Shown here one piece after another: positions 1-13,413 of a DNA stretch of 13,413 nt. Source of the DNA: an uncultured Eubacteriales bacterium (GTDB taxonomy: Bacteria; Bacillota_A; Clostridia; Lachnospirales; Cellulosilyticaceae); contig USPX01000037.1 of NCBI GenBank assembly GCA_900556665.1, positions 1-13,413 of the forward strand. The letters are read 5' to 3'. Below the pieces are notes generated by a model that saw only the letters and a program-made list of their open reading frames with translations, was not told the origin of the DNA and did not search any database. Numbering within the stretch: the first letter of the stretch is position 1; each line of letters begins with the position of its first letter. The position numbers and the translations under genes were made by a program.

Positions 1-63
1 TGATTTAATGAATCGACTGGTTTATATGATTACTATTTTGTTTTCAAAGTTCATTTATTTTTC

Positions 64-87
64 GTTAGCGGTTTGTGTCCCGCTGAC
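64..87 (-). other. 5' leader hairpin of the left-edge stable-RNA transcript
   Basis: On the minus strand the arms are GTCAGCGG and CCGCTAAC, eight positions with one C-A mismatch, closing an eight-base loop GACACAAA. The hairpin starts at the predicted transcription start, so it would sit at the extreme 5' end of the RNA. The same arms occur at 8099-8122 before tRNA-Glu, where only one loop base differs. It has no T-run and is not a terminator. Confidence 0.6.
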
Positions 88-123
88 TTATATAATATTA
101 CACTTATTTTCTACATACGTCAA
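64..123 (-). promoter_or_regulatory. Strong stable-RNA-type promoter firing out of the left edge
   Basis: On the minus strand there is a -35 box TTGACG (118-123), a 17-base spacer and a -10 box TAATAT (95-100). Start of transcription is expected near 87-89. A-rich tracts at about 124-150 directly upstream of the -35 box resemble an UP element. The predicted transcript begins with a hairpin (64-87). The 60-base unit matches the tRNA-Glu promoter at 8099-8158 at 51 of 60 positions by hand count. Downstream, minus-strand positions 63 to 1 hold no coding sequence; they include the motif CTTTGAAAAC, of a kind often seen in pre-16S leaders. I infer that an rRNA or tRNA operon begins just left of the window. 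Confidence 0.75.
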
Positions 124-166
124 CCCCTTTTTTCTATTTTTTTCAAAGAAATTATATCAACCTCTA

Positions 167-1264
167 TTATCCTTGTATTTTCAAGGTTTTCCTTATTAAA
201 AAAATCTCTACGATACTACAGAAAATCAAACCTATTTGACTACTTCTGCAAATTATTTGTATAGATTTAGGGTATTCTTCCATTTGTACTAGTATATTTT
301 TGATTGGTGTACATACTTCAACAAGTTCTTCTATAAACCGTTCCCCTATAAAAATGCTTATTCCACCTACAGCCATTATTATGATTATTTGTTTAAGTAT
401 CACTTTTGCATTATTCCTTATGTATTTATGCAGATATTCTTTTTTTAGTCCTTCCTGTAACTTTATATATGCTGATTTTCCTCTAGCTCTGATCTGGTTC
501 CATAAACAAATTAATAGCATAACCAAAATACTACTTCTCACAAGCTGCATTGTATGATTCAGCCTTTCCATCTGCTGCTTGACTGAAATATACATATAGT
601 CCTCTTTATTTCTTCCTAAAGTAGCTAGTAGCGTATTAATTATTTCTTGATTTTTTAACTTCTCATCCTCAAGATTACAGACTACAAATCCCTTTAGTGT
701 TACGTCATCCTTTTTGCCTAAACTATATGCTGTCCCCTTTATCTTTTTCTTTTTATATTTATATCTATCATACAATCTTTGTTTTATTACCCCTTCTACC
801 TTGTATGATTGCCCCTCTATTTCTACTTTTTTTCGCTGCTCATTCTCTAGCAACTCTGTTGTTCCAAATAAATTAAAAGCCACTTGATGATCTAGTACAA
901 TTTGCTGCTTAGCATATGGATTATTATTTAAAAAAACACCATGGCATAAACTTAATTTATTCCATTTGTTATAATTTTCATTAGTTTGAATAAGCCAGAT
1001 TAAATACGCTCTATTATCTGATTCTATAACTTGTGTAGATTCATAACTATAAGATATTTCTAGTTCTGGATATTTTTCTTCTAACTCCTCTATATCTTTT
1101 ATAGTAAATAGCTTTTCTTTATGTGTAGAATCTTTGGCTGTAATATAAGCGATTTCCTTTGCCCCCATCTTCTCACTCCAACTTGAAACAATTAAGCTTA
1201 TAAGTCCTATAAAGCCTATTATTACAATAAATTTTATATCTCTAAAAATACCTAATCTATTCAT
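167..1264 (-). CDS. MacB/FtsX-like permease protein without ATPase domain
   Basis: This 365-residue membrane protein has the layout of a MacB/FtsX-type permease: one N-terminal membrane segment (about residues 12-28), a large external domain (about 30-238), then three membrane segments (about 243-256, 290-306 and 342-357). Residues 109-160 follow the MacB periplasmic core pattern: a GVFL turn, a VLDHQVAFNLFG stretch and a YKVEGVI strand. Family members normally pair with, or are fused to, an ABC ATPase that drives conformational change for export or signalling across the envelope. None is encoded here. The ATG overlaps the end of the HlyD-like gene by eight bases, so the two are translationally coupled and likely partners, as MacA and MacB are. 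It ends with tandem stops TAA TAG. No clear terminator follows before the left-edge promoter. The topology is seen directly; the family assignment rests on motif recognition. Confidence 0.75.
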   Translation of the reverse strand: MNRLGIFRDIKFIVIIGFIGLISLIVSSWSEKMGAKEIAYITAKDSTHKEKLFTIKDIEELEEKYPELEISYSYESTQVIESDNRAYLIWLIQTNENYNKWNKLSLCHGVFLNNNPYAKQQIVLDHQVAFNLFGTTELLENEQRKKVEIEGQSYKVEGVIKQRLYDRYKYKKKKIKGTAYSLGKKDDVTLKGFVVCNLEDEKLKNQEIINTLLATLGRNKEDYMYISVKQQMERLNHTMQLVRSSILVMLLICLWNQIRARGKSAYIKLQEGLKKEYLHKYIRNNAKVILKQIIIIMAVGGISIFIGERFIEELVEVCTPIKNILVQMEEYPKSIQIICRSSQIGLIFCSIVEIFLIRKTLKIQG

Positions 1265-2621
1265 TCACTAAAACCTCATTTTCATTTTCTAGTCTTATGC
1301 GCATACCTTCTGATATTTCATCTTCACTTGTGATAATAACTTTGTCTAAAACAGTAATGCCTTCTGAAATAGCAACATACGTGTCATTATAATCCGCCAT
1401 ATATACTTTTTTCTTTTTAACCATATAAGATTTCCCCAATGCATCATCTATTTCTTCTGCCACAAATACAAAGTAACTATTTTCTTCTTTGTACACCGCA
1501 CTATATGGAATTACATTATCATAGATTTTATCCTCTTCTTTAAAGACAATAGTCATCTCATCTCCTACATTAACTACTTCTGAATTAAACGTTATTCCAA
1601 TCTTTAAATGATCCTTTTCTTTTTTTATTTGATTAATACTCCCTTTTAAATCAACTACATCTTCGCTCTTTACATCTACTAAATCATCTATTTTCATAAA
1701 GTCTATTTCTGGTTCTATTTCTACCTCTAATCTATATCCAGCCTCTAAACTTCCAAGTTGTAAAAGTAATTGGTTTTCACTTATTCTTTGTCCTTCTGCC
1801 GCCATTTCCCCCTCTTTAGGCTCTAATACTCTTCCTCCGCTACTGGCTATAATCATTCCGTTCTGGCTTTTTATCTTTTCTAAGTCAGCTATCTCTAATT
1901 TAATTTGCTCTATTTCTAGTTGTTGTAATTCCTCTTGCCCCTGTAGTTCTTTTTTTTCATCTTGCAAACTTATAATCTCTTCTTTTAATAGTTTGATTAT
2001 TTCTTCTTTAGCTTTTTCATGCTCTTTTAATTCCTTTTGCTGCGCATTTACTAAGCTTTCTAATGCTATTTGTGATTTTCTAAGTTCACTTTCTGAAATC
2101 AGTTCATTTCTATATAAATCCTCATTAACAGCTACTAATGCTTTGGCTTCTTTTATTTCTAATGTTTTATCTTCTACTAAACTTTGTTTTCCCTGTTCTT
2201 CATTTATCTCTTGTTCTACTTTATTTAATTTCTCATAAATACTAGTTACTTTATCGACTTGTAATTTTAAATTTACTTCAGCCTTTTTTAATTCTATTTG
2301 TTTGGTTTGTAGTTCTTTTTTTGTCTCCTCAATATCTAATTGATAAAGTATATCTCCCTTATTTACTTCATCCCCTGGTTTTACATAGACCTTTAATACT
2401 TTTCCCTGAAAAGGCGCATAAATAGGTACTTCTTTTTGAAATATTGCATTTGCTTTACATTCTAATGTTTTACTTAAGTTCATTTGCGCCGCTTTGCCTA
2501 CTCTTACCTTTGGTAAAGTCATATTCATAAGTGTTTTTGAAAAAAAAGTGAGCACTAAAATAATGCTCATAAAAATCATTCCTATCTTAGTAATTTTCTT
2601 CTGTCCTAATTTCCTCTCCAT
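1257..2621 (-). CDS. HlyD/MacA-like membrane-anchored adaptor protein
   Basis: This 454-residue protein is an adaptor (membrane fusion protein) of the HlyD/MacA type. A single N-terminal anchor (residues 11-28) is followed by half of a biotinyl-lipoyl-like domain (about 64-98, with the typical APFQGKV and VKPGDEVNKGD turns). A long charged coiled-coil hairpin spans about 99-252 and is very rich in E, K, Q and L. The second lipoyl half is at 255-290 (IASSGGRV, EGEMAAEGQ), and beta-barrel and membrane-proximal domains run to the C-terminus. In Gram-positive bacteria such proteins stand on the outer face of the membrane and assist ABC exporters. The gene starts with AAAGGGG eight bases before its ATG, five bases after the stop of the permease gene, and overlaps the next gene by eight bases. 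The next gene looks like a MacB permease, which makes it the probable partner. Confidence 0.85.
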   Translation of the reverse strand: MERKLGQKKITKIGMIFMSIILVLTFFSKTLMNMTLPKVRVGKAAQMNLSKTLECKANAIFQKEVPIYAPFQGKVLKVYVKPGDEVNKGDILYQLDIEETKKELQTKQIELKKAEVNLKLQVDKVTSIYEKLNKVEQEINEEQGKQSLVEDKTLEIKEAKALVAVNEDLYRNELISESELRKSQIALESLVNAQQKELKEHEKAKEEIIKLLKEEIISLQDEKKELQGQEELQQLEIEQIKLEIADLEKIKSQNGMIIASSGGRVLEPKEGEMAAEGQRISENQLLLQLGSLEAGYRLEVEIEPEIDFMKIDDLVDVKSEDVVDLKGSINQIKKEKDHLKIGITFNSEVVNVGDEMTIVFKEEDKIYDNVIPYSAVYKEENSYFVFVAEEIDDALGKSYMVKKKKVYMADYNDTYVAISEGITVLDKVIITSEDEISEGMRIRLENENEVLVNE

Positions 2622-2626
2622 TTTAT

Positions 2627-3463
2627 CTACCCCTTTATCCCTGAAAGTTCTATGCCTTCAACTAAATAATCTTGTCCATATAAAAACACTATAATTACAG
2701 GAATCATATAAAAACATGATGCTGCAAATATACTTTCTACTTGCTGCTCACTGATTGTTGATAAAAATAGTGATAATGGCTGCTTATAGATATCTTGTAA
2801 AAATACAATCGCCTGTTCTACTACATTCCAGTATTCAATAAACGCTAAGATTACTAATGCAAATAATCCTGCTTTTGTAATCGGCAAAAATATATTGATT
2901 AAAATATCCATTTCATTACATCCATCCATATAAGCAGCTTCTATATATTCCTTTGGAATGGCCTTCATATATTGGGTTAATAAAAACACACCAAAAGGTG
3001 AAAAAATCCCTGACAAAATAATGGCTAAATGACTATCCATAAGTCCTAATTTTTGTATAATCATAAAATTTGGAACTAGTACAACCTGAAGTGGCAATAA
3101 CATAACGATGATATACATATAAAAAATAATTTGTTTCCCTTTAAAATCAGATTGTATAAAACCATAAGCTCCTAAAAAAGATATAATAGCCTGTCCCACA
3201 ATAATACTCACTGTAATCTTTACCGAATTCCAAAATAAAATAAGGTATTTAGGCTTATAAAAAAGCAAGTATACATAACTTTTAAAAGTAACTTGTTCTG
3301 GGATTAGCATCATATTGCTGCCTTCTAATGTGTAATGTCTCACGATTTCTTCTGAGCCCATAAAGGAATTGGTAAATGTACTGAATAATGGGTACAAGAG
3401 CATCATGCTTAATATAACAAACCAAAATCCTAATACTAAGGTTTTAGATTTAGATTTCATCAT
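2627..3463 (-). CDS. Carbohydrate-type ABC importer permease (MalG-like)
   Basis: This 278-residue inner-membrane permease belongs to the MalG/CUT1-type group. It has a signal-anchor-like first segment (8-30), further membrane segments (about 78-102, 110-136, 146-164, 198-218 and near 250-268), and the cytoplasmic EAA loop at about 172-194 (EYIEAAYMDG followed by a conserved LP). That loop docks onto the ATPase. With the MalF-like gene upstream it should form the membrane channel for the substrate delivered by the lipoprotein encoded two genes upstream. The first ATG overlaps the preceding gene by 14 bases. AAGGGGG lies only about three bases before it, so the second Met codon, three bases in, is an equally good start. 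No ATPase gene accompanies it; many CUT1 importers in Firmicutes share an MsmK/UgpC-type ATPase encoded elsewhere. Confidence 0.9.
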   Translation of the reverse strand: MMKSKSKTLVLGFWFVILSMMLLYPLFSTFTNSFMGSEEIVRHYTLEGSNMMLIPEQVTFKSYVYLLFYKPKYLILFWNSVKITVSIIVGQAIISFLGAYGFIQSDFKGKQIIFYMYIIVMLLPLQVVLVPNFMIIQKLGLMDSHLAIILSGIFSPFGVFLLTQYMKAIPKEYIEAAYMDGCNEMDILINIFLPITKAGLFALVILAFIEYWNVVEQAIVFLQDIYKQPLSLFLSTISEQQVESIFAASCFYMIPVIIVFLYGQDYLVEGIELSGIKG

Positions 3464-4304
3464 CTGCCCCCTTTTGTCCCAATCGTAGAATAAACATTAA
3501 TATAAGTATAAAAGTAACAAGTATATAGGCTGCTGTACTTAACTTCTGATAGTTTAATGATAAGAACATATTGTTCATATAATGTTGAATCATATAAATC
3601 GATTCATGTGGATACCCTCCTGCTATAAGATATATTTCTTTAAACACCTTAAAACTATTGATGATAGACATAATAAACACCAATACTGTTGTAGGCAATA
3701 AATATACCCATGTAATATATTTAAATCTTGCTATGCCATTGGCACCTTCAATAGCAGCACTTTCATAATATGTAGTTGGAATACTATATAACCCAGCTGT
3801 GAAAAGAATGGTATTGTACCCTATGTTTTTCCATATAAAAATATAAATCATAACCCCTAGTGCATATTGGGAATTTAACCAATCAATAGCTTCTATTCCT
3901 CTTATACTCAAAACCCTATTTAATAACCCTTCTAAACTAAAAAATTCCTTCCAGAAGAACGCAATAGAGGCTGTTGGTATAATCATTGGCATAAGTACAA
4001 TGCACTGCAATAATCTTTTTTGATGATGTAATGTTTTTATTCCCATAGCTACTACTAAAGAAAGCATCATACTAATCGGTACACATATCCCAATAAATAG
4101 TACTGTATTCTTTAAGGCATCTATAAAAATATCATTTTGAAATAATTGCATGTAGTATGTGAACCCTACAAAATCTGCATTCACTCCTTGATCTACAACT
4201 GTATAATAAAAAGCCATTATAAAAGGGATGAGATAAAAAACACTAAATCCTACTAAACTAGGCAGTAGAAATACTATCCCCTTAAAATTTCTTTTATGAG
4301 TCAT
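3450..4304 (-). CDS. Carbohydrate-type ABC importer permease (MalF/UgpA-like)
   Basis: This 284-residue permease is the first of the two importer channel subunits. Membrane segments are visible at about 10-33, 66-89, 98-118, 148-170, 200-218 and 255-274. The EAA loop at 179-203 reads YYESAAIEGANG and ends in a conserved LP, typical of the UgpA/MsmF group; the length is normal for it. The gene starts 26 bases after the lipoprotein gene, with GAGGGGTGA about eight bases before ATG, and its end overlaps the next permease gene by 14 bases. Sugar transport is the usual role of the family, but the substrate here cannot be read from the sequence, and its downstream partners make a plain sugar importer doubtful. 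Confidence 0.9.
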   Translation of the reverse strand: MTHKRNFKGIVFLLPSLVGFSVFYLIPFIMAFYYTVVDQGVNADFVGFTYYMQLFQNDIFIDALKNTVLFIGICVPISMMLSLVVAMGIKTLHHQKRLLQCIVLMPMIIPTASIAFFWKEFFSLEGLLNRVLSIRGIEAIDWLNSQYALGVMIYIFIWKNIGYNTILFTAGLYSIPTTYYESAAIEGANGIARFKYITWVYLLPTTVLVFIMSIINSFKVFKEIYLIAGGYPHESIYMIQHYMNNMFLSLNYQKLSTAAYILVTFILILMFILRLGQKGADDEI

Positions 4305-4330
4305 TTTTTATTCACCCCTCTCATATTTCA

Positions 4331-5689
4331 TTATTCATTTAACATAGTATAAACCTTAGTTTGTATCTTTTGTGCCACTTCTTCCGCACTTTTATTGCCT
4401 TTAAAGAACTGCTCCGTTTCTTCATAAACAACATCATCAATTTCTATAACTGATTTCTTGATATACGGTATACTTACCCATTTTTCAAGTGCCTCTTTTA
4501 ATTCATTAGCAATCTCTTCAGGTTCCTTCTGTAATTTAAGTCCTTCATGTCTAAGTTCCTTTTTTAACGTTTTAGCTGTCTCAGTATTTCTCATAAAAGC
4601 TGCATTCTTATTAACCGGAATACCATCTACCTCCGGACTCTTTTGCATTTCTTCAGATAACATAGTTTGAATAAGCTCCCAGCAAAGCGCTTGATCTTTG
4701 GCATCCTTTGTAATAGCTATTTCACTTGTTGCATTTAACTCTATTTTTCCTTCTTCATTCATACGTGGCTTTGTATAATTCATATCCCCTGCGTGCCCAA
4801 TGTATTCTGGTTGATATAAACAATATCTACGACCACCTAAACAATTAGCAAATAAACTATTTTCTGCTTGGTTTTCAAATTCCCCATTGTATAATAATCC
4901 CTTATCTTCTGCTGCTTTACACTCTTTTAAAAGCTGAATAAACTGCCCATTATCAAAGTTCACTACTTTATCTTCTATCTGTATGAACTGTTCTTCTTCT
5001 AATCCATATTTATCATGGAATAAGCTGTTTGCATCCCCATTTTGTAAATATACCTCTTCTTTATTTGGCGCAGTATCTAATAACTTTTCCATGCTCTTGT
5101 AATCCCAATACTCCCCATTAATTGCTGCTTCATCTATACCCGCCTTAATCATAGCCTTTTCATTTATACCTACCATCGTTACATCAAAACCTACTGGTAT
5201 AGCATAAATATTCTCTTTATAAGTACTACTTTTTAAAACGTTCATATAATACTGCTTATCCGTCAACTGACTTGTTCCTTCTATATAAGAAGTTAAATCC
5301 ACTAAATAACCGCTTTGAGCATATTTATATTCCGGTAACCAACTTAGCATTAATAAATCTAGTGCTGTATTCCCCATGAAAGCTGTATTTAAATAGGTGA
5401 TATAATTTTCAAGTGTACGCTCTGGGTTCATATCCTGCCCAGGTACCTCTATTCCTTCTGAAACCCTTGTTGGTTCTCCAAATTCTTTAAAAGCTTCTAT
5501 TGTCACCTCTACATCAGGATGTTCTTTTTCAAATTGCTTCACTACAGTCTCTAAATAAGGACTTGGAAAGTATGTAGAAATAACAAGTTCTTTATCCTTT
5601 ACTTTTTCATTTCCTACACTAGCACCACAGCCTGTTACCATGCTAATAACAAGCATAGCAGTGCTAGCTTTCTTTATATTATTAAACAT
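4331..5689 (-). CDS. ABC importer solute-binding lipoprotein (family 1 type)
   Basis: This 452-residue protein is an extracellular solute-binding protein. It has a short signal sequence with basic residues (KK), a hydrophobic stretch (11-18) and a lipobox VTGC, so Cys21 should be lipidated and tether it outside the membrane. The mature part opens with the ELVISTYFPSPYLETVVKQF pattern of type 1 (sugar-type) binding proteins, and length fits the group. It leads the five-gene operon, followed by the two matching permeases. The start is secure: AGGAGG lies five bases before ATG. A terminator for the upstream kinase gene at 5800-5832 implies a separate promoter in 5690-5800. I see no good -35/-10 pair there, which would fit a promoter needing an activator such as the neighbouring LytTR regulator. 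The ligand is unknown; a peptide or other signal molecule is as possible as a sugar. Confidence 0.88.
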   Translation of the reverse strand: MFNNIKKASTAMLVISMVTGCGASVGNEKVKDKELVISTYFPSPYLETVVKQFEKEHPDVEVTIEAFKEFGEPTRVSEGIEVPGQDMNPERTLENYITYLNTAFMGNTALDLLMLSWLPEYKYAQSGYLVDLTSYIEGTSQLTDKQYYMNVLKSSTYKENIYAIPVGFDVTMVGINEKAMIKAGIDEAAINGEYWDYKSMEKLLDTAPNKEEVYLQNGDANSLFHDKYGLEEEQFIQIEDKVVNFDNGQFIQLLKECKAAEDKGLLYNGEFENQAENSLFANCLGGRRYCLYQPEYIGHAGDMNYTKPRMNEEGKIELNATSEIAITKDAKDQALCWELIQTMLSEEMQKSPEVDGIPVNKNAAFMRNTETAKTLKKELRHEGLKLQKEPEEIANELKEALEKWVSIPYIKKSVIEIDDVVYEETEQFFKGNKSAEEVAQKIQTKVYTMLNE

Positions 5690-5799: not shown

Positions 5800-5832
5800 A
5801 AAAAAATATCTCTATTGCTATGCAATAGAGAT
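5800..5832 (-). terminator. Rho-independent terminator after the sensor kinase gene
   Basis: A perfect 11-base-pair stem (arms ATCTCTATTGC and its complement, loop of three) is followed on the minus strand by seven Ts (5800-5806) after a two-base ATA-type join. The kinase stop codon TAG (5818-5820) lies at the hairpin loop, so the last codons form one arm. It separates the two-component operon from the lipoprotein operon. Confidence 0.88.
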
Positions 5833-7113
5833 TAATATAGAAACACTAAATATATTTTCCTCACATTTATAATTTAAATAACCATCATACTTATTTACCA
5901 CATATTGGATACTCTTCATACCATAACCATGTTCTTTAGCATTTTCTTTTTTTCGCCGCATCAATTCTCCATGATTAATGGGGTTAGAAAGTACTGCATT
6001 TGATACTTCTACTAATAATTTTTTATGATGAATATTAATATCAATCATTCTTTTTTCTTCATCTACTTCTCTAACAGCCTCGATTGCATTATCTAATAGA
6101 TTAGATAATAATGCCCCTAAATCAGTTGCTGTAATTTTTATTTCTTCTGGCACCTTCACCTTGATATTAAATTTTATATGATCAGCTTTCCCCACTTCTA
6201 TTTTTTGATTGATTACAGCATCAGCAATAATATTACCTGTCTTAAAATAAGCACTGGGCTGCTCTACTTCTTTTTGTAAATCATTAATATACGCTGTCGC
6301 CTTTGTTAAATCTTGATTATCTATCAAATATCTAAGTACACTAAAATGATTCAACATATCATGTTTTTGCTTACGAATTATTTTTTCCTTATTATCTACT
6401 TCGATGATAGATTTTTTTAACATCTCTTGAGAATTAATAATAATTTTTAATGTATTTTGTTCTTCTAAATACCTACCAATTTGATTAATCAGTACTACTA
6501 TGGCCATATTCAATATAATAAAACATGTAATCATTATTGAAGCTACTCTACAAACCTGAACTTCTTTCGTTTCCAAAGCAATCTTCGTAACAATTGCAAT
6601 ACATAACATGGAGAAAATGACAATTCCCATTAACATATACTTGTATTTATGGCTTATCTCTAAATTCAAATACATTTTGAGATTCTTTAGCATTCTTACA
6701 ATAAACAAACTTAATATTTTTACTAAAGTAACGATACATATTCTACTTACGGTATGAAATGCCATAATCTCATCAATGCTTTTCATAGTAACACCAGCAG
6801 CTAAATTTATAACTAACAAACTAATGCCCATTAATACTCCATCGAATAAAATACTTGCTAATAATAACGTTCTTATATCCTCTTTAAAATATATAAAAGC
6901 ATATGCACTCATTAAAATGAAGCAAATCATATCCGCTGAAACTTTATATAAATGAAATTGTGTCACATAATTGGATAACATTGAAAATACAATGATGCCA
7001 ATAATGACTGTACAAGTTTTATTGCTCCGTTTCTTATGTAAGAAAATATTTAAATACATATTTAAATAAACAAAATCTAATGCCGAAAATATAAATTCTA
7101 AAACCCCGTACAT
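5818..7113 (-). CDS. AgrC-like GHKL sensor histidine kinase
   Basis: This 431-residue membrane kinase has an N-terminal half of about six hydrophobic segments (roughly 5-25, 34-52, 58-76, 82-108, 122-141, 157-178 and 188-212). A short linker leads to a phospho-acceptor helix with His251 in KQKHDMLNH. A GHKL ATP-binding domain follows: N box around 337-344 (SNLLDNAIEA) and G box HGYGMKS at 395-401. This layout is that of the AgrC/HPK10 group, whose usual ligands are secreted peptides. It starts seven bases after the regulator's stop, so the pair is co-transcribed; GGGG lies close to the ATG with AAGG further upstream. No AgrB- or AgrD-like gene is visible in the window, so its signal is unknown. 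The operon downstream, with a binding lipoprotein and a MacA/MacB-like pair, is the natural candidate for both target and signal handling. Confidence 0.9.
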   Translation of the reverse strand: MYGVLEFIFSALDFVYLNMYLNIFLHKKRSNKTCTVIIGIIVFSMLSNYVTQFHLYKVSADMICFILMSAYAFIYFKEDIRTLLLASILFDGVLMGISLLVINLAAGVTMKSIDEIMAFHTVSRICIVTLVKILSLFIVRMLKNLKMYLNLEISHKYKYMLMGIVIFSMLCIAIVTKIALETKEVQVCRVASIMITCFIILNMAIVVLINQIGRYLEEQNTLKIIINSQEMLKKSIIEVDNKEKIIRKQKHDMLNHFSVLRYLIDNQDLTKATAYINDLQKEVEQPSAYFKTGNIIADAVINQKIEVGKADHIKFNIKVKVPEEIKITATDLGALLSNLLDNAIEAVREVDEEKRMIDINIHHKKLLVEVSNAVLSNPINHGELMRRKKENAKEHGYGMKSIQYVVNKYDGYLNYKCEENIFSVSILISIA

Positions 7114-7120
7114 ACAACCC

Positions 7121-7846
7121 CTACCTTATATATGAAATAAAACTATCATAAAACTCTTTTTTCTTAGTTCTGCCTAATGAAAAACTTTCTTCTTCTTCGC
7201 AATATCTTACGATGACTTCATCTTTTTTGGTAATCTCATCTACATATCTAAGGTTTAATAATACTGAGCGATTTGGTTGTTCAAAAAAATTATTTCTTCC
7301 TAGTACCTCAGTAATATCCTCAAATTTATCTATTATAATCCTATATTTCCCCTTGGTAGATTTCACATAGAACTTTCGAAGGCTTCTTTCAAAATATATT
7401 ATTTCTTTCTCCACAAGTTTCAACATGCCTTCTGGGGTATTAAATGTATAGCTAGCCTTTAATCCTATTACATGCATTAAACACTCTTTAAATAAACTTC
7501 TAATACGCTGCTCATCATAACTTTTTAAAATAAATCGATAAGCATTATATCCAAAGGTATCATAAACCCTATTTTCCATCATAGTTAAAAAGGCAATAAC
7601 AACTTGATCATTCATATCTCTAATCTTTTTAGCCACCTTAATGCCATCTAGCTGCGGCATATCTATATCTAAGAAAATCAAATCTAATCCTTCTATCTCC
7701 TTGCTATAGTCTTCAAGCAATGAATTACCACTGGTATAGGTTTCAATATCATATTTCAAATTTAATGCTTCTAGTTCCATTACAATTAATTGCTTCATTC
7801 TATCTAAATGTACGTTCTGATCATCACAAAAAGCTATTCTTAGCAT
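7121..7846 (-). CDS. LytTR-family response regulator (AgrA-like)
   Basis: This 241-residue regulator has an N-terminal receiver domain and a C-terminal LytTR DNA-binding domain. Receiver residues are intact: acidic pocket Asp8-Asp9 (CDDQ), phospho-acceptor Asp60 in IFLDIDMPQLDG, Thr88 and Lys108. Residues of about 130-240 form the LytTR domain, with the conserved IIYFERSLRK and NLRYVDEI strands. LytTR proteins bind paired nine-base sites, often in front of operons for secreted peptides, exporters or virulence genes. It is the first gene of the two-gene signalling operon, in the order regulator-kinase. The ribosome site is modest (GGGG about ten bases before ATG). Its targets probably include the lipoprotein operon beginning at 5689, but I found no clean pair of LytTR direct repeats there. 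Confidence 0.92.
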   Translation of the reverse strand: MLRIAFCDDQNVHLDRMKQLIVMELEALNLKYDIETYTSGNSLLEDYSKEIEGLDLIFLDIDMPQLDGIKVAKKIRDMNDQVVIAFLTMMENRVYDTFGYNAYRFILKSYDEQRIRSLFKECLMHVIGLKASYTFNTPEGMLKLVEKEIIYFERSLRKFYVKSTKGKYRIIIDKFEDITEVLGRNNFFEQPNRSVLLNLRYVDEITKKDEVIVRYCEEEESFSLGRTKKKEFYDSFISYIR

Positions 7847-7938
7847 ACTTACTCAGCCCCCAATAAAATATATTTTTAAAGTTAAATATGTATTAACTAT
7901 CTATATTTTTATACTGATTATTTTTGTATTTTCGATAT

Positions 7939-7966
7939 ATTATAACATTTTTATTAGATAAAACAA
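7939..7966 (-). promoter_or_regulatory. Probable promoter of the two-component operon
   Basis: A perfect -10 box TATAAT (7939-7944) is preceded by TG one base upstream, an extended -10 element. TTGTTT lies 16 bases upstream (7961-7966), overlapping the T-run of the tRNA-Glu terminator. The leader to the regulator ATG is about 85 bases and very AT-rich. It contains an inverted pair AGTTAA/TTAACT with a seven-base gap at 7880-7898. Confidence 0.5.
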
Positions 7967-7995
7967 AAAGCACCATAACCTGAGTTATGATGCTT
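7965..7995 (-). terminator. Rho-independent terminator of tRNA-Glu
   Basis: On the minus strand the arms AAGCATCATAAC and GTTATGGTGCTT form a 12-base-pair stem with one G-U pair and a TCAG loop, followed by a run of Ts. It begins ten bases after the 3' end of the tRNA and isolates the tRNA from the two-component operon. Confidence 0.85.
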
Positions 7996-8005
7996 CTTAT
8001 AAGTA

Positions 8006-8077
8006 TGACCCGTACGAGAATCGAACTCGTGTTACCGCCGTGAAAGGGCGGTGTCTTGACCGCTTGACCAACGGGCC
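8006..8077 (-). tRNA. tRNA-Glu (anticodon UUC)
   Basis: A 72-base cloverleaf is visible. The acceptor arms GGCCCGT and ACGGGTC pair with one G-U. The anticodon stem CCGCC/GGCGG encloses loop CTTTCAC with anticodon TTC, and the T loop is TTCGATTC-like. The discriminator is A, and no CCA is encoded. It has its own promoter, leader hairpin and terminator, so it is a single-gene transcription unit. Confidence 0.96.
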
Positions 8078-8098
8078 TTATTGTTTATTTCTTTTCTT

Positions 8099-8158
8099 GT
8101 TAGCGGTTCGTGTCCCGCTGACTTGTATAATATTACACTATAAGATTACATACGTCAA
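8099..8158 (-). promoter_or_regulatory. tRNA-Glu promoter with 5' leader hairpin
   Basis: The -35 box is TTGACG (8153-8158), the spacer 17 bases and the -10 box TAATAT (8130-8135). Several A-tracts lie directly upstream (about 8159-8200), like an UP element. The predicted transcript begins with a hairpin at 8099-8122 (arms GTCAGCGG and CCGCTAAC, loop GACACGAA), about 20 bases before the tRNA. The unit is nearly the same as the one at 64-123. Confidence 0.85.
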
Positions 8159-8237
8159 GCGTTTTTATAAACTTTTTTTAAGTTTTTTTGTTTCTTTTAT
8201 TATTATACCCTTAAAACCCTTGAAAATACGTCATTTA

Positions 8238-8729
8238 TCATAATTTATTTTGTGTAAAATCTTGGACATCTTTTACGCGTACTACCTTGTTTTGATAAAA
8301 TTTTAATCTTTTTTCAAAGATATGACGTGTTTTTTCAAAGTCTTTATTCCACTGTAACATGAGTGAAAGCATCTTAAAGTCAGATTTATAATTACATTTA
8401 TCTAATCCTAACTGCTGTTTAATGAATCTTATCACGATATTTTTTCGTCTTTCTTCAAAAGGTGTATCTAAATAAATAATCTTATCGCATCTATCTAATA
8501 GGCAATGATAACTTTTTCGATACACACCTTCACAGATCCATTTGCCCTGCTTATCTATTTCATTTAATTGCTCCAGCTGCTCCTCATTACTTATACGTCT
8601 TCTTTTACCCCTTTCTCTCTTATAAGCAATATTATCAAGTTCATAATAAGGGATATCTATTTCCCTAGATAATTTCTTCGCTAAAGTCGTCTTTCCGCTG
8701 CCTACACAGCCTATAATATAAATCTTCAC
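8238..8729 (-). CDS. Small P-loop nucleotide kinase-like protein
   Basis: This 163-residue cytoplasmic protein opens with beta strand MKIYIIG and a Walker A motif GCVGSGKT (residues 7-14). ELDNIAY (about 30-36), GKWICEGVY (about 63-71) and KIIYLDTPFEER (about 83-94, the second strand and lid start) follow. This resembles the small adenylate-kinase-like family often annotated as DNA topology modulation protein FlaR; its true substrate is unknown, so I give no symbol. The start codon is GTG: the frame has a stop seven codons upstream and no ATG, and AGGAG lies ten bases before the GTG. It stands alone between two tRNA units. Its 3' end comes 79 bases before the tRNA-Glu -35 box, with no obvious terminator between. 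Confidence 0.8.
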   Translation of the reverse strand: MKIYIIGCVGSGKTTLAKKLSREIDIPYYELDNIAYKRERGKRRRISNEEQLEQLNEIDKQGKWICEGVYRKSYHCLLDRCDKIIYLDTPFEERRKNIVIRFIKQQLGLDKCNYKSDFKMLSLMLQWNKDFEKTRHIFEKRLKFYQNKVVRVKDVQDFTQNKL

Positions 8730-8757
8730 CTTCTCACTTCTCCTAACTTATATCCTG

Positions 8758-8785
8758 CTAATATAATAATAGACCTCTTTTTCAA
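8758..8785 (-). promoter_or_regulatory. Possible promoter of the P-loop kinase gene
   Basis: TTGAAA (8780-8785), a 16-base gap and TATTAG (8758-8763) on the minus strand would place the transcript start about 20 bases before the GTG. The -35 box lies in the loop side of an imperfect hairpin (8771-8792). Only moderate matches to consensus. Confidence 0.35.
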
Positions 8786-8792
8786 GAAGTCT

Positions 8793-8957
8793 ACCCTATC
8801 ATTATTGGATTGATGAAATAATTTCTACTAACTTATTTATCGCCACTTTACTTGACTTCTACTTTTAATACACTAGAAGTAACTCAAATGTTGCATTCGT
8901 ATAAATATTTTTTAAGGTTATTTTATCATATATCCTTACTTTACTATTTTTAAATGC
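8793..8957. other. Non-coding AT-rich gap between kinase gene and tRNA-Gly terminator
   Basis: I see no supportable gene here on either strand; the longest open frames are about 20 codons and lack ribosome sites. The only structure noted is an inverted repeat, ACTTCTA (8855-8861) and TAGAAGT (8874-8880), with a 12-base gap and no T-run. Confidence 0.6.
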
Positions 8958-8988: not shown

Positions 8989-9000
8989 TCTTATCATTAG

Positions 9001-9073
9001 AGCGCGAGACGGGACTCGAACCCGCGACCCTCTCCTTGGCAAGGAGATGCTCTACCAACTGAGCCACTCGCGC
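9001..9073 (-). tRNA. tRNA-Gly (anticodon GCC)
   Basis: A 73-base cloverleaf is visible. Acceptor arms GCGCGAG/CTCGCGC pair perfectly. The anticodon arm TCTCC/GGAGA holds loop TTGCCAA with anticodon GCC, and the T arm is GCGGG/CCCGT around TTCGAGT. The discriminator is U, as usual for bacterial tRNA-Gly. No CCA is encoded. Confidence 0.97.
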
Positions 9074-9289: not shown

Positions 9290-10852
9290 TTATTTAGTTG
9301 TAATAATTTTAAAATCTGGCTTTGCCATGATTTCTACTACTTGATGCTTTTTGATATATTCAATTGCTAATGCTTGAATATCTACATCATATTCTTTAAC
9401 CACTTCACATTGTTGATAGCATTCATAACCACCAGTTCCTGTTGCACGGTAATCGCTCATAGCTAAAGTATACTTTTTATCACCTAATGGCTGGCCATCT
9501 TTTAAGATTTCTACTACTCTCTCACCTACAGGCTTTGTAAGATCAAATGTATAGCTTAATCCGGCAAAGAAATCATAATTATAATGTTCTACTTTAGGAT
9601 TAATGAAGCAATCTGAAATCACTACTTCTCCATCTTCTTTAAGCGTATAATACTGTGCACAACGCTCTAAAGCCTGGCGAAGTACTTTTTCATCTACTTC
9701 TAATACTTTCACTGTATTAGGGAACTGATATGCCCCCATAACGTCTCTTGTCGTTACTTCTTTCTTAAATCCAATTGGGTTGTTTCCTAAGCTGATACAA
9801 GAGAAATCTGCACCTGAAAGTTCTAATTGTAACTGATTACAGAAATCAGCTAATCTAGAACCTTCTAATGCTAATGTTAATTTATCTAAAGCTGGAATCT
9901 CTTCTGTGAATCCACCTAATTTTTTATCTAACCATTCTTCTACTGCTTGTTGCATGCTAAACCACTTATTTGCAAGTTCAACTGATCCATGAGTTCCTAC
10001 TGCTTGAATAGCCTCTGGGCTCATTTCAATAGCTTTAGGTGCTTTACATGTAGAAGTAATTTCAAGTTCACCATTTTCTTTAACTTCAACTAAAACTTCA
10101 GCATACTTTTGTGCATTAGCTGGTAATTGAAGTGTATAAGTACCATGTATCATTCTGCCTTCTACTGGCATATGTTGATGTGCTGTAAGTACTACATCAT
10201 AGCTTAATTCTTTACAAATACGGTAACCCACATTTTCTTTTCCTTTAGCTAAACTTTTGCCTGTTTCAAGGTCAGCTTCAAATCCACCATGATAAATACA
10301 TACTGTTACATCACATTGATCCTTAATTTCTTCTAATGTGACTTTTGCAGCTTCAAAAGTATCTTTTACTTCTAAGTTTGTAAGATGTTCAGGTTTTTCC
10401 CATAAGTTAACATAGTCTGTAACGATTCCTACTAAACCTACTTTTAAACCATTTTCAAGTGTATGAATCACATAAGGTTTTATATTTAATTTACCTGCTT
10501 TATCAATTACATTAGCTGCTAAAGCACCAGCTTGTAATGTGTCTAAATATTTTTGAAGCCCTGTGTAGTCATAATTGAAATCATGATTGCCAAGTGCTAC
10601 ATAGTCATATGGTGCAGTATTAAATACTTCTGCAATAGGAAAACCTCTTTCTGAGTTCTCCCACATATATTTCACAAATGCAGACCCTTGAATTGTGTCA
10701 CCACCATCTAAAATAAGTGTATTACCATCTTTATTAAATTCATTTATGCAGCTTAATACACCCATATCTCTGCTTGATTTAGTAATATAATCTGTTGGGA
10801 ATAAATAACCATGTGTATCTGACGTATAATACATCTTTAATGTTCTTTTCAT
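9290..10852 (-). CDS. Cytoplasmic 5'-nucleotidase/metallophosphatase
   Basis: This 520-residue two-domain enzyme is of the UshA/5'-nucleotidase family, which removes phosphate from nucleotides or related phosphoesters using two metal ions. The N-terminal metallophosphatase domain shows the metal ligands: Asp12-x-His14, Asp52 in LDGGDTIQG, GNHD at 88-91, His188 in YHGG, and His225-x-His227 in TAHQH. The C-terminal domain (about 310-510) contains the substrate-binding GNNPIGF region and a late TGTGGYE motif. There is no signal peptide, unlike classical periplasmic UshA or wall-anchored relatives, so it should act inside the cell. It is the last gene of the operon, five bases after the second permease gene, with AAGGGGG eight bases before ATG. 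In this context it may release phosphate from an imported organophosphorus compound or its product. Exact substrate unknown. Confidence 0.88.
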   Translation of the reverse strand: MKRTLKMYYTSDTHGYLFPTDYITKSSRDMGVLSCINEFNKDGNTLILDGGDTIQGSAFVKYMWENSERGFPIAEVFNTAPYDYVALGNHDFNYDYTGLQKYLDTLQAGALAANVIDKAGKLNIKPYVIHTLENGLKVGLVGIVTDYVNLWEKPEHLTNLEVKDTFEAAKVTLEEIKDQCDVTVCIYHGGFEADLETGKSLAKGKENVGYRICKELSYDVVLTAHQHMPVEGRMIHGTYTLQLPANAQKYAEVLVEVKENGELEITSTCKAPKAIEMSPEAIQAVGTHGSVELANKWFSMQQAVEEWLDKKLGGFTEEIPALDKLTLALEGSRLADFCNQLQLELSGADFSCISLGNNPIGFKKEVTTRDVMGAYQFPNTVKVLEVDEKVLRQALERCAQYYTLKEDGEVVISDCFINPKVEHYNYDFFAGLSYTFDLTKPVGERVVEILKDGQPLGDKKYTLAMSDYRATGTGGYECYQQCEVVKEYDVDIQALAIEYIKKHQVVEIMAKPDFKIITTK

Positions 10853-10857
10853 TTATC

Positions 10858-11667
10858 TTACCCCCTTGCGAGTTTAATACGAATTTTACCTGAAAGCCAT
10901 TCGATAATTAATACTAATACAATAAGTCCAGCTAAGATAGCCCCTACTTGATTCCATTTATAAGCATTCATCGCAAAGATTAATGGCGCCCCGATACCAC
11001 CAGCACCTACTAAACCTAAAACTGTAGCATCTCTTAAATTCATATCGAAACGATAAATAATTGTTGATGCGAAGTCTGGCATAAGTTGTGGTAAAATACC
11101 GAAACGAATTTTTTGGAATGTTGTACATCCACAAGCATCTAATGATTCTAAAATTTTAGTATCAATGTCTTCAATAGATTCAATGTACATTTTTGAAATC
11201 ATACCAATTGAACAAACTGACATTGTTAAAAGCCCTGCAAACGCCCCAGGTCCTGTTACCCTAATGAACATAAGACCATATACGAAAGCTGGAATTGTTC
11301 TTATTGCCATAATAATAACGCGTCCAATAACTGCAATTGGCTTAGGCATAATATTACTTGCACTTAAGAAAGAAATAGGAATCGCTAAAATAGCCCCTAC
11401 AATTGTTCCTAAAAATGCAATACACATTGTTTCTAATAAAAGGTATGGTACCCCTTTATTTGTAAAGTTAAATAAAAGTTCAGTATCAGGTTGCAAAATA
11501 CCCATGAAAATACTTTTTGCTACATCTGTACCACCATCTGTTACACCTTTAAAGTCAACTGTACTACTTGACCATGCCATAAGTACAACAAAAATCAAGG
11601 CCGCTGCTAATTGAAAGATCCAGCTTTTAGGCTCTTTTGCTAACTGTTGTTTAATTTCTGCTCTCAC
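10858..11667 (-). CDS. phnE: Phosphonate-type ABC importer permease (second PhnE)
   Basis: This 269-residue permease of the PhnE family has a membrane anchor at 17-34, further segments at about 78-103, 112-136, 140-160, 212-232 and 240-258, an EAA-like docking loop at about 170-194 (ILESLDACGCTTFQ ending in ILPQLMP), and the PhnE hallmark NLRDATVLGLVGAGGIG at 210-226. It should pair with the neighbouring PhnE-type subunit in one importer driven by PhnC. The start is GTG (11665-11667), supported by AAAGGG seven bases upstream; the gap to the preceding gene is 14 bases. Whether the substrate is a phosphonate, phosphite or a phosphoester is not decided by the sequence. Confidence 0.88.
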   Translation of the reverse strand: MRAEIKQQLAKEPKSWIFQLAAALIFVVLMAWSSSTVDFKGVTDGGTDVAKSIFMGILQPDTELLFNFTNKGVPYLLLETMCIAFLGTIVGAILAIPISFLSASNIMPKPIAVIGRVIIMAIRTIPAFVYGLMFIRVTGPGAFAGLLTMSVCSIGMISKMYIESIEDIDTKILESLDACGCTTFQKIRFGILPQLMPDFASTIIYRFDMNLRDATVLGLVGAGGIGAPLIFAMNAYKWNQVGAILAGLIVLVLIIEWLSGKIRIKLARG

Positions 11668-11681
11668 GTTAGTACCCTTTC

Positions 11682-12503
11682 TTAAGTTAATTTCTTACGT
11701 AAATAATGACTGATTCCCTCAATAATCATAACTGTTATAAAGAGCGTCACAAGAATCATACCTACACTACTGTATTCTCTCCAACCAATCTTTTCATTTA
11801 AGATTAGCCCAAGACCACCTGCACCTACATATCCTAAGATTGAAGCATATCTTACATTTCCTTCAAAACAGAATAAACAGTTTGCAATATAACTTGGTAA
11901 AACTTGAGGCATAATCGCTGCAACAAAAGCACGTAACTTAGTTGCTCCAAAGGACTCCATTGCTTCATATGCACCCATATCTACTGTTTCAATTTGCTCA
12001 TATAAAAGTTTACCAATATAAGCAAATGTAAATACAGCAATAGCTGTTGTACCAGCTAAAGTACCAAGCCCAAATACATAAGTTGCAATAAGCGCAATAA
12101 CTAATGTAGGAACTGTTCTTACTAAACTTAAGAATAAACGTGTAATAGACACAACTACTTTATTATGCACAACATTACTTGCCGCAAGCATTGCAAATGG
12201 AATTGCAACTACTGCACCAATAACTGAACCTAATAAAGACATTTTAATTGTATCAAATAATGGTCCCCAGATTGCACTTATATAGCTTGTCTCTGGTGGA
12301 AACATTTGTCCTAAGATAACAAAGAACTGTTCCCCTCTTTTCATTAATACAGATAAATCAAAACCTGTAATATCAATTGAAATCCAAGAAGCAATAACTA
12401 ATAATAAAACAATTAGTGGCATTCTTGAACGACGCTCTAAGACTTCTCTTCCATCTGAAAGAGTTAACTTTTTCGGTGGGAAAATCTTATCATATAAGCT
12501 CAT
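11682..12503 (-). CDS. phnE: Phosphonate-type ABC importer permease (first PhnE)
   Basis: This 273-residue PhnE-family permease has membrane segments at about 28-45, 84-108, 115-140, 144-163, 210-235 and 245-262, an EAA-like loop with GAYEAMESFGATKLR followed by IMPQVLP (about 173-195), and the hallmark NVRYASILGYVGAGGLG. I chose the ATG at 12501-12503 because GGAGG lies seven bases before it and because it starts two bases after the phnC stop. An in-frame ATG 36 bases upstream would overlap phnC, lacks a comparable ribosome site and would add an unusual basic extension. Two permease genes per operon, probably forming a heterodimer, is common for phosphonate-type importers. Confidence 0.9.
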   Translation of the reverse strand: MSLYDKIFPPKKLTLSDGREVLERRSRMPLIVLLLVIASWISIDITGFDLSVLMKRGEQFFVILGQMFPPETSYISAIWGPLFDTIKMSLLGSVIGAVVAIPFAMLAASNVVHNKVVVSITRLFLSLVRTVPTLVIALIATYVFGLGTLAGTTAIAVFTFAYIGKLLYEQIETVDMGAYEAMESFGATKLRAFVAAIMPQVLPSYIANCLFCFEGNVRYASILGYVGAGGLGLILNEKIGWREYSSVGMILVTLFITVMIIEGISHYLRKKLT

Positions 12504-12505
12504 TC

Positions 12506-13264
12506 TTATGCCTCCATTTTTCCAATTTCTTGACCACAATAAATACTATCTAACACTTCTTGTGTTACTTTGCTACTTGGCCCATCATATACAATTTCAC
12601 CAGCTCTAACACCAATTACACGATCAGCATATTCTAATGCTAAATCAACATGGTGAATATTAATTAAAATAGAGATATTCATTTCTTTATTAATACGTCT
12701 AAAGTCATCCATAACTTGTCTAGCTGTTACAGGGTCTAAAGCTGCTACTGGTTCATCAGCTAACATAATTTTTGGTTGTTGTGCTAAAGTTCTAGCTAAA
12801 GCTACCCTTTGTTGTTGTCCACCAGAAAGTTGATCACATCTTGTATAAGCTTTATCTAAAATACCAACTTTATCTAAAGCTTCTAATGCGATAACTTTTT
12901 GCTCTTTAGGATATGCACCTAAAAGCACACGCCAAAATGGAAGATCTGGAATATTAGAAGTAAGTACGTTATTAAGTACTGTTGTTCTTGTAATAAGATT
13001 AAATGATTGGAAAATCATCCCTACACTTCTACGATATTTTCTAAGTGCTTTTCCTTTTAATGAATTAACATCTACACCATCTACTGTTAATTGACCTTCT
13101 GTAATATCATGTACACGATTAATTGTACGAATTAATGTAGATTTACCAGCTCCTGAAAGCCCGATAATTGCTACGAATTCACCTTGTTCAATTTCAAGTG
13201 ATACATTTTTAAGGCCCTTGTACCCATTCGGGTATACTTTGCTTACATTTTCAAATTTAATCAT
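12506..13264 (-). CDS. phnC: Phosphonate-type ABC importer ATPase PhnC
   Basis: This 252-residue ABC ATPase powers the PhnE permeases. It has Walker A GLSGAGKST (35-43), Q-loop Gln86 in IFQSFNL, signature LSGGQQQR (146-153), Walker B IMLADE (166-171) followed by the D-loop (AALD), and switch His204 in INIHHVDLA, the usual PhnC form. The start is ATG 13262-13264, with GGAGA six bases upstream. The frame runs 29 codons further to an ATG at 13349-13351, but that would read through a terminator-like hairpin and add a sequence unlike any ABC N-terminus. The binding protein PhnD is not in the window. Confidence 0.93.
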   Translation of the reverse strand: MIKFENVSKVYPNGYKGLKNVSLEIEQGEFVAIIGLSGAGKSTLIRTINRVHDITEGQLTVDGVDVNSLKGKALRKYRRSVGMIFQSFNLITRTTVLNNVLTSNIPDLPFWRVLLGAYPKEQKVIALEALDKVGILDKAYTRCDQLSGGQQQRVALARTLAQQPKIMLADEPVAALDPVTARQVMDDFRRINKEMNISILINIHHVDLALEYADRVIGVRAGEIVYDGPSSKVTQEVLDSIYCGQEIGKMEA

Positions 13265-13282
13265 AAAAATTCTCCAGTTCTT

Positions 13283-13294
13283 ATTGTATACAAT
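13283..13294. promoter_or_regulatory. Perfect palindrome, possible operator before phnC
   Basis: ATTGTATACAAT is a perfect 12-base palindrome eight bases upstream of the phnC ribosome site. Its GTATAC core with TTG/CAA flanks resembles sites used by GntR-family regulators (family knowledge; no regulator gene is in the window). It also contains TATACA, usable as a -10 box, but the -35 position would lie inside the upstream hairpin and matches poorly. Confidence 0.4.
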
Positions 13295-13304
13295 TTGTTT
13301 TGCG

Positions 13305-13345
13305 AAAAAATAATGGATGAGCATAATTGCTTCATCCATTATTTT
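13305..13345. terminator. Bidirectional terminator-like hairpin upstream of phnC
   Basis: A 12-base-pair stem (AATAATGGATGA and its complement, 13309-13343) extends by three pairs (GCA/TGC) with one bulged base. On the minus strand six Ts follow (13305-13310); on the plus strand ATTTTTATC follows. It could end an upstream minus-strand gene, an incoming plus-strand transcript, or act as an attenuator for phnC. Beyond it, 13346-13413 shows no complete gene. Two minus-strand frames remain open at the edge and stop at 13379 and 13368, and either could be the tail of an upstream gene. Confidence 0.6.
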
Positions 13346-13413
13346 TATCATTTAATTATCATAGCCGTTAACTTAAGACTAAGTTTTTCCAGTAATAATG
13401 AGTTGTTCTAAAT

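Follow-up and report, generated by a model that had tools for sequence, protein, structure and literature searches.

What kind of machine is specified by five adjacent genes that join the parts of a MalFG-type importer to those of a MacA/MacB-type exporter? The question is raised by the first 13,413 nucleotides of contig USPX01000037.1 (assembly GCA_900556665.1), from an uncultured Eubacteriales bacterium of the Cellulosilyticaceae; this whole stretch is hereafter called the window. Its five-gene set encodes a solute-binding protein (SBP), MalF- and MalG-like permeases, a HlyD/MacA-like adaptor and a MacB-like protein. A preliminary description placed the genes at the positions that our analysis confirms, with gaps of 26 and 5 bases and overlaps of 14 and 8 bases, and proposed that their products may form one composite surface machine, using ATPases encoded elsewhere or none. 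The genes do form one unit; the last one does not encode a permease, and the family is not free of ATPases. Judged from sequence, the set appears to be an importer-like machine that is both new and widespread.

Close relatives are few. Among 5.8 billion proteins, a search confined to close relatives returned, apart from the query, six proteins with the MacB-like gene product and four with the SBP; the SBP as sole query found no relative in genome contigs, and viral contigs and plasmids yielded none. Scanning with the MacB-like family matched 2 of the 24 genomes of Cellulosilyticum's family (genomes are numbered G, loci L). Cellulosilyticum ruminicola (G001, locus L001) carries the corresponding five genes, with a HlyD reading frame that begins about 30 residues late, and in G004 the five-gene set follows genes for a kinase and a regulator. 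Across the order, 63 of 392 genomes gave a match. Among 28 regions around these matches, 13 hold MalFG and HlyD and 12 hold a MacB-type ATPase adjoining an FtsX permease, L043 and L047 have lost their upstream side to contig ends, and L046 pairs HlyD with a MacB-like gene in a region devoid of MalFG.

A MalG profile built from 22 loci extended the survey. Searched at E 1e-60, it matched module-type MalG in 91 of the 392 order genomes and in 9 of 393 phylum genomes, in searches that scored the best few candidates per genome. The resulting 129 loci comprise 120 from the order, 8 further ones from the phylum, where three more matches duplicated order ones, and the window; 103 were examined and six more later, and the remaining 20 all score 222-276 bits. 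Wider regions were taken for five (L098, L100-L103) of a set of 30 listed loci, plus one more row. Where MalG scores at least 380 bits, HlyD comes next in 58 of 58 loci and the MacB-like gene after it in 55 of 58. Without the 21 profile seeds, these counts are 37 of 37 and 34 of 37. Of the three loci that depart from this pattern, L195 and L210 lie on contigs that stop 82 and 0 bases past HlyD, and in L219 the MacB-like gene was not recognised in the 8 kb after HlyD. The search for the five-gene order that the preliminary description proposed thus finds it conserved. At 300-380 bits HlyD is next in 22 of 23 loci and is followed by the MacB-like gene in 10 of 23; at 240-300 bits the counts are 20 and 16 of 22. 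Weaker relatives therefore retain HlyD better than the MacB-like gene, in a comparison in which both hidden Markov models came from seed loci, divergent copies may escape, and a few of the shorter adaptors or cores could stem from disrupted genes. Three of the 103 loci lack HlyD next to MalG: in L226 the contig ends 329 bases past MalG, and in L260 and L263 the HlyD match lies upstream of MalF. At 207-224 bits, HlyD was found in two of the six later-examined loci, which places the family boundary at about that level.

Comparison with ordinary importers sharpens the picture. In four genomes, module-type MalG scored 294-453 bits against 43-142 bits for the other 36 MalG-like places. Controls were 25 ordinary MalG genes from these 36, in G001, G004 and G066, with 0.5-1.5 kb examined downstream of each; none was followed by a clear HlyD match, and three gave marginal scores of 6-11 bits. 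Across 80 loci, pairwise distances correlate between MalF and MalG (0.795), MalG and HlyD (0.787), and MalF and HlyD (0.719), and between the MacB core and MalG (0.668), MalF (0.659) and HlyD (0.637); none of 500 permutations reached such values. The five genes are one conserved, co-inherited unit.

The last gene had been described as a MacB/FtsX-like permease, a label that does not survive. The MacB periplasmic core (MacB_PCD) is present in 49 and the FtsX domain in none of the 51 module proteins scanned from a total of 81, against 11 of 11 for each domain in true MacB controls. What the protein retains is the surface domain; it is no FtsX permease. By hydropathy, its membrane anchor reads as one helix in 3 of 80 members, L004 and L042 among them. 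With the FtsX domain missing, no MacB ATPase is to be expected and export is unlikely. The HlyD and MacB-core folds are both matched in the last two proteins of the set. The adaptor consists of one membrane helix, a barrel-sandwich, a long alpha-hairpin, a beta-barrel and a membrane-proximal domain; its best-kept portions are the anchor and the membrane-proximal domain, which find a match in about 94-97 of 100 adaptors.

Some architectural variants were seen along the way. In L051 (9090-10763, 557 amino acids) the MacB core is seemingly fused at its C-terminal side to a HAD-type hydrolase (Pfam Hydrolase, one of 51 members). Database protein P0007 begins like the C-terminal end of a HlyD-like protein and continues into the MacB-like protein, through either fusion or an assembly deletion. 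In L055 the MacB-core gene is followed by one for a 372-residue protein (7777-8895) that by eye resembles a coiled protein of the outer-membrane-factor kind and has no Pfam or NCBIfam match.

The permeases retain the features of ATP-driven transport. EAA loops are the docking sites for a MalK-type ATPase, and in 80 relatives their residues are at least 90% conserved in both MalF (E181, A183, A188) and MalG (E175, A176, A177, D180, G181). As had been reported at the outset, no MalK/UgpC-type or MacB-type ATPase gene lies within the window's five-gene set; 9 of 103 loci nevertheless have a UgpC/MalK-type gene within or next to the operon, which rules out a family with no ATPase at all. In L038 and L048 this gene directly follows the MacB-like one, and its UgpC-family products score 467 and 461 bits (NCBIfam cut-off 432) and carry OB_MalK and TOBE_2 domains. 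It also stands after the MacB-like gene in L139-L143 and L262, and before MalF in L240. An ATPase dedicated to the set had been taken as fatal to a composite machine. Its MalK type, suited to driving MalFG, instead turns that idea into one of an ATP-driven importer with extra subunits.

Members with no ATPase gene of their own may use a shared one. G001 and G004 each encode a single UgpC above the cut-off, on a contig other than that of the operon, a possibility that the preliminary description had raised; the 13 kb surrounding each of these genes showed neither a CUT1 permease nor an SBP. Short MacB-like ATPases occur on the same strand within 9 kb in 7 of 103 loci, none of them inside the set in the gene orders inspected. 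Service of several importers by one ATPase is established, according to the accessible portion of one source (PMC7658222), and transporter B of Clostridium thermocellum relies on an ATPase encoded elsewhere, as excerpted from another (PMC9601137). A shared UgpC/MsmX-type ATPase encoded elsewhere would thus drive MalFG in Cellulosilyticum, and presumably in the window's organism.

These observations lead us to favour, with somewhat more confidence than doubt, an ATP-binding cassette (ABC) importer of the MalFG kind (type I) that carries two accessory subunits on its outer face. The lipoprotein would deliver a ligand to MalFG, powered in Cellulosilyticum by the shared ATPase. The adaptor and the MacB-type domain would together make up a collar at MalFG's outer opening, which may dock the loaded binding protein or shape the entry path. 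The subunit contacts and the cargo are both aspects that we infer. A broader formulation, which we regard as tentative and rather less probable, is a new ABC architecture in which an outer-face MacA/MacB-core assembly of Gram-positive cells has import-type permeases and a MalK-type ATPase as its motor, whether to guide uptake at the wall or to do mechanical work on the surface. Such an architecture would be common in Lachnospirales and may include CbpC, the C. thermocellum 'cellodextrin transporter' protein, as a misassigned member.

Part of this formulation recurs in a rival explanation that we hold to be unlikely, yet the strongest of the alternatives: MalFG and its ATPase would be the motor of an outer-face MacA/MacB-core machine, performing mechanical work or moving a surface molecule outward, with import-type permeases in place of the lost FtsX helices. 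In its favour, the exporter parts that move in MacAB are HlyD and the MacB core. In the absence of the FtsX domain and a MacB ATPase, MalFG with a MalK-type ATPase is also the set's ATP-driven element, and in 14 of 103 loci the set is accompanied by a large membrane protein together with a GntR regulator and an ATPase. Binding proteins point instead to import: 94 of 103 loci have one or more of them inside 9 kb, and 26 have at least two. Among solved chains, moreover, the MalG profile is closest to AlgM2, SugB and MalG, and all seven of its solved relatives are importer permeases. A ligand receptor for two-component systems, Bce-like and with transport secondary, is improbable. It would account for a two-component pair within 7 kb of at least 24 of 103 loci, the window included, and for an additional GHKL kinase family in six. 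That count, a lower bound from six query proteins, leaves 79 loci in which no pair was seen; the pairs are not close relatives, and in the window a terminator-like hairpin stands between the pair and the SBP gene.

The remaining rivals treat the two halves as unrelated. That two independent machines share an operon by chance seems very doubtful. HlyD-ATPase-FtsX sets without SBP or MalFG do occur in the same order, as the 12 regions with a MacB-type ATPase illustrate, and L046 has a HlyD and MacB-like pair alone. The order kept in non-seed loci, the co-inheritance of the genes, the control MalG genes without a clear HlyD neighbour and the loss of an FtsX domain that every MacB control retains all stand against coincidence. 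Equally hard to credit is an ordinary MacAB-type exporter that uses an ATPase encoded elsewhere and lies beside an unrelated importer; the HlyD and MacB-core folds fit it, whereas the missing FtsX domain, the lack of a MacB-type ATPase in the set and the few single-helix anchors noted above do not.

The importer with a collar must also be reconciled with what is known of the binding protein. The best solved relative of the window's SBP is CbpC of C. thermocellum (7x0o), with E 1.9e-11 for the single sequence and 2.9e-31 for a profile. CbpC ranks first for all four module SBPs tried (the window's and three from relatives) and not for a control SBP. In the accessible parts of a 2022 study, CbpC bound no tested sugar, a loop blocks its pocket, and loss of transporter C by mutation left growth normal on glucose, cellobiose and Avicel (PMC9601137). 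A cello-oligosaccharide is thus not favoured as the cargo; our guess, weakly held, is a peptide or some molecule derived from the envelope. Many relatives' SBPs are large, at 716-971 residues (1287 in one), with about 320-470 residues before a C-terminal CbpC-like core, and two of four scanned gave weak beta-propeller matches in the N-terminal part. Examples of such large SBPs are L139 2812-5220 and L060 3033-5441.

Several points weigh against the collar-bearing importer. The supposed contact of the adaptor and MacB-type domain with MalFG is one. The cargo guess has a thin base, namely 2 of 103 loci linked to ribosomally synthesised and post-translationally modified peptides (RiPPs), 14 of 103 Ytr-like loci, and the regulator types. 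In L141, CbpC leads Lmo0181 by 1 bit only. An earlier study, as recounted in the available passages of PMC9601137 and PMC11212667, claimed sugar binding by CbpC, and the latter, a review, still lists it. Genes of the cbpC operon were up on glucose or fructose in one excerpted report (PMC8303734) and on xylose in another (PMC7471329). Genes for glucuronate isomerase (UxaC, 14825-16258) and altronate dehydratase (16447-17949) lie a few kb from the module in L053. An argument that module neighbourhoods are free of catabolic genes was dropped in view of these uronate-catabolism genes, which, together with the sugar expression reports, slightly lower confidence in both the importer with a collar and the receptor. 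The gene set itself is not seamless either. No MacB-like gene is recognised next in 19 of the 100 loci with HlyD; five of these lie within 0.8 kb of a contig end, and 14 have 1.9-8.6 kb of sequence left. In L046 (7881-11273), a module-type HlyD of 211 bits precedes a 660-residue MacB-like protein, with neither MalFG nor a MacB-type ATPase flagged within 19 kb. The last two genes, whose routine separation from the first three would have undone a composite machine, both stay with them in 55 of 58 loci at MalG scores of 380 bits or more, and L046 has them apart from MalFG.

The set shares parts with several known systems and matches none of them. CUT1/MalFGK2 importers (MalFGK2, UgpABCE, AlgM1M2SS, SugABC) have an SBP and two EAA permeases in common with it, together with a UgpC/MalK-type ATPase that some module relatives encode and others possibly take from elsewhere; the module adds two exporter-type surface subunits. 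MacAB-type exporters (MacAB-TolC, Spr0693-0695, YknWXYZ) contribute the HlyD/MacA adaptor and MacB periplasmic core, while the module lacks the FtsX domain and the MacB-type ATPase and has MalFG permeases and SBPs. The 14 loci with a GntR regulator, an ATPase and a large membrane protein resemble what we take to be the arrangement of Bacillus subtilis YtrGABCDEF, a likeness for which the GntR and ATPase families alone were tested. To our knowledge, Ytr has no SBP, MalFG or HlyD, and the window carries none of those three additional genes. Transporter C of C. thermocellum (Cthe_2125-2128), home of the closest solved SBP relative, is a four-gene operon that includes msdC1 (Cthe_2125), msdC2 (Cthe_2126) and cbpC (Cthe_2128) and pairs two permeases with an SBP, as in the module (PMC8303734, excerpted). 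The accessible text mentions neither a MacB-core gene nor an ATPase for it. The legend of Figure 1 in PMC9601137 lists AcrA-like and radical SAM genes among the drawn clusters, leaving unsaid which cluster holds them. A Legionella system (PMC11559062) was set aside as a MacAB-like exporter with a different set, on the portion of that paper at hand. No description of the SBP-MalFG-HlyD-MacB-core set was found among the open-access papers searched, which were judged by their listings apart from those cited here, in agreement with the preliminary impression; this is no proof of novelty, as subscription papers were mostly missing.

Membrane-fusion adaptors and MacB cores are textbook exporter parts, and a large conserved family that pairs them with import permeases breaks that rule. 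The module offers a clean system for asking what role adaptor and MacB-core domains play where no exporter is present. Lachnospirales carry it often, as up to 91 of the 392 genomes sampled have module-type MalG, and its genes are probably annotated apart, as sugar importers on one side and drug-efflux parts on the other. It may also explain the absent sugar phenotype of C. thermocellum transporter C, whose real cargo would then become testable.

Regulators and other neighbours vary from locus to locus. The preliminary description asked whether the five genes are conserved together with two-component genes; a fixed link of this kind was rejected, as a pair was seen in 24 of 103 loci and the pairs are dissimilar, those of the window and L004 being alike as a broad class only. 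Clustering of neighbours, with one member per family scanned, gave eight families of 5-9 loci each, none of them general: MscL, DUF711, the GHKL kinase, phosphoglycerate mutase, a LacI-type regulator, an Fe-alcohol dehydrogenase, a cation-efflux protein and a metallo-hydrolase. In the 14 Ytr-like loci (L053, L057, L138, L195, L196, L199-L206 and L208), MalF is preceded by the GntR regulator, a DrrA-type ATPase and a roughly 725-residue membrane protein; these loci are composites with a second ABC system. In L040 (1058-11000) and L130 (7717-18345) the module lies within radical-SAM peptide clusters (CcpM TIGR04068 and TIGR04066). A general link to CcpM clusters was discarded, given these 2 of 103 loci and CcpM above its cut-off in 8 of 392 genomes. 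Two further CcpM clusters, L132 and L134, hold several CbpC-like SBPs and no MalFG in the stretch examined. A gene of ABC exporter type (at least 330 amino acids) lies near 7 of 103 loci. In C. ruminicola, upstream of the SBP and near the contig start, an ABC-exporter-ATPase-like gene (L001 105-1109) stands in place of the two-component pair.

The features of the window are collected in the table, with proteins assigned to families by Pfam and NCBIfam scans.

Table. Genes and signals of the five-gene set and its two-component neighbours in the window
Feature	Position	Strand	Basis
Response regulator, LytTR type (neighbour)	7121..7846	-	Response_reg and LytTR matches
GHKL-type histidine kinase (neighbour)	5818..7113	-	HATPase_c_5 and SPOB_a matches
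Terminator-like hairpin between kinase and SBP genes	5808..5832	-	11 pairs, T-rich tail
Extracellular solute-binding lipoprotein (SBP), CbpC-like	4331..5689	-	SBP_bac_8/SBP_bac_1; lipobox-like VTGC read in sequence
MalF-like permease subunit	3450..4304	-	BPD_transp_1; UgpA 87 bits, below cut-off 335
MalG-like permease subunit	2627..3463	-	BPD_transp_1; UgpE 87 bits, below cut-off 297
HlyD/MacA-like membrane-anchored adaptor	1257..2621	-	Pfam, NCBIfam and fold match
MacB periplasmic-core-domain protein, non-FtsX membrane anchor	167..1264	-	

Because the terminator-like hairpin lies at the end of the kinase gene, the kinase and regulator genes probably form a transcript separate from the five-gene set; the hairpin is a pattern match, one of five in the region where 2.2 are expected. 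At the other end, the stretch below position 167 is probably a ribosomal RNA (rRNA) leader, and the operon therefore seems to end there. A 25-base motif from it recurs 14 times in G004, with at most two mismatches. The operon end stands just before rRNA-leader-like sequence in three loci (window 1-166, L004 19331-19547 and L001 6811-6824). Elsewhere in the window, the minus strand of 9290-13351 encodes a second ABC group, with an ATPase, two permeases and a 5'-nucleotidase-like protein, which on open reading frames alone may be phosphonate-uptake-like. A P-loop kinase-like open reading frame with a GTG start (8238-8729) weakly matches a 'DNA topology modulation protein', at 65 bits against a cut-off of 215, and the minus strand also carries tRNA-Glu (ttc) at 8006-8077 and tRNA-Gly (gcc) at 9000-9073.

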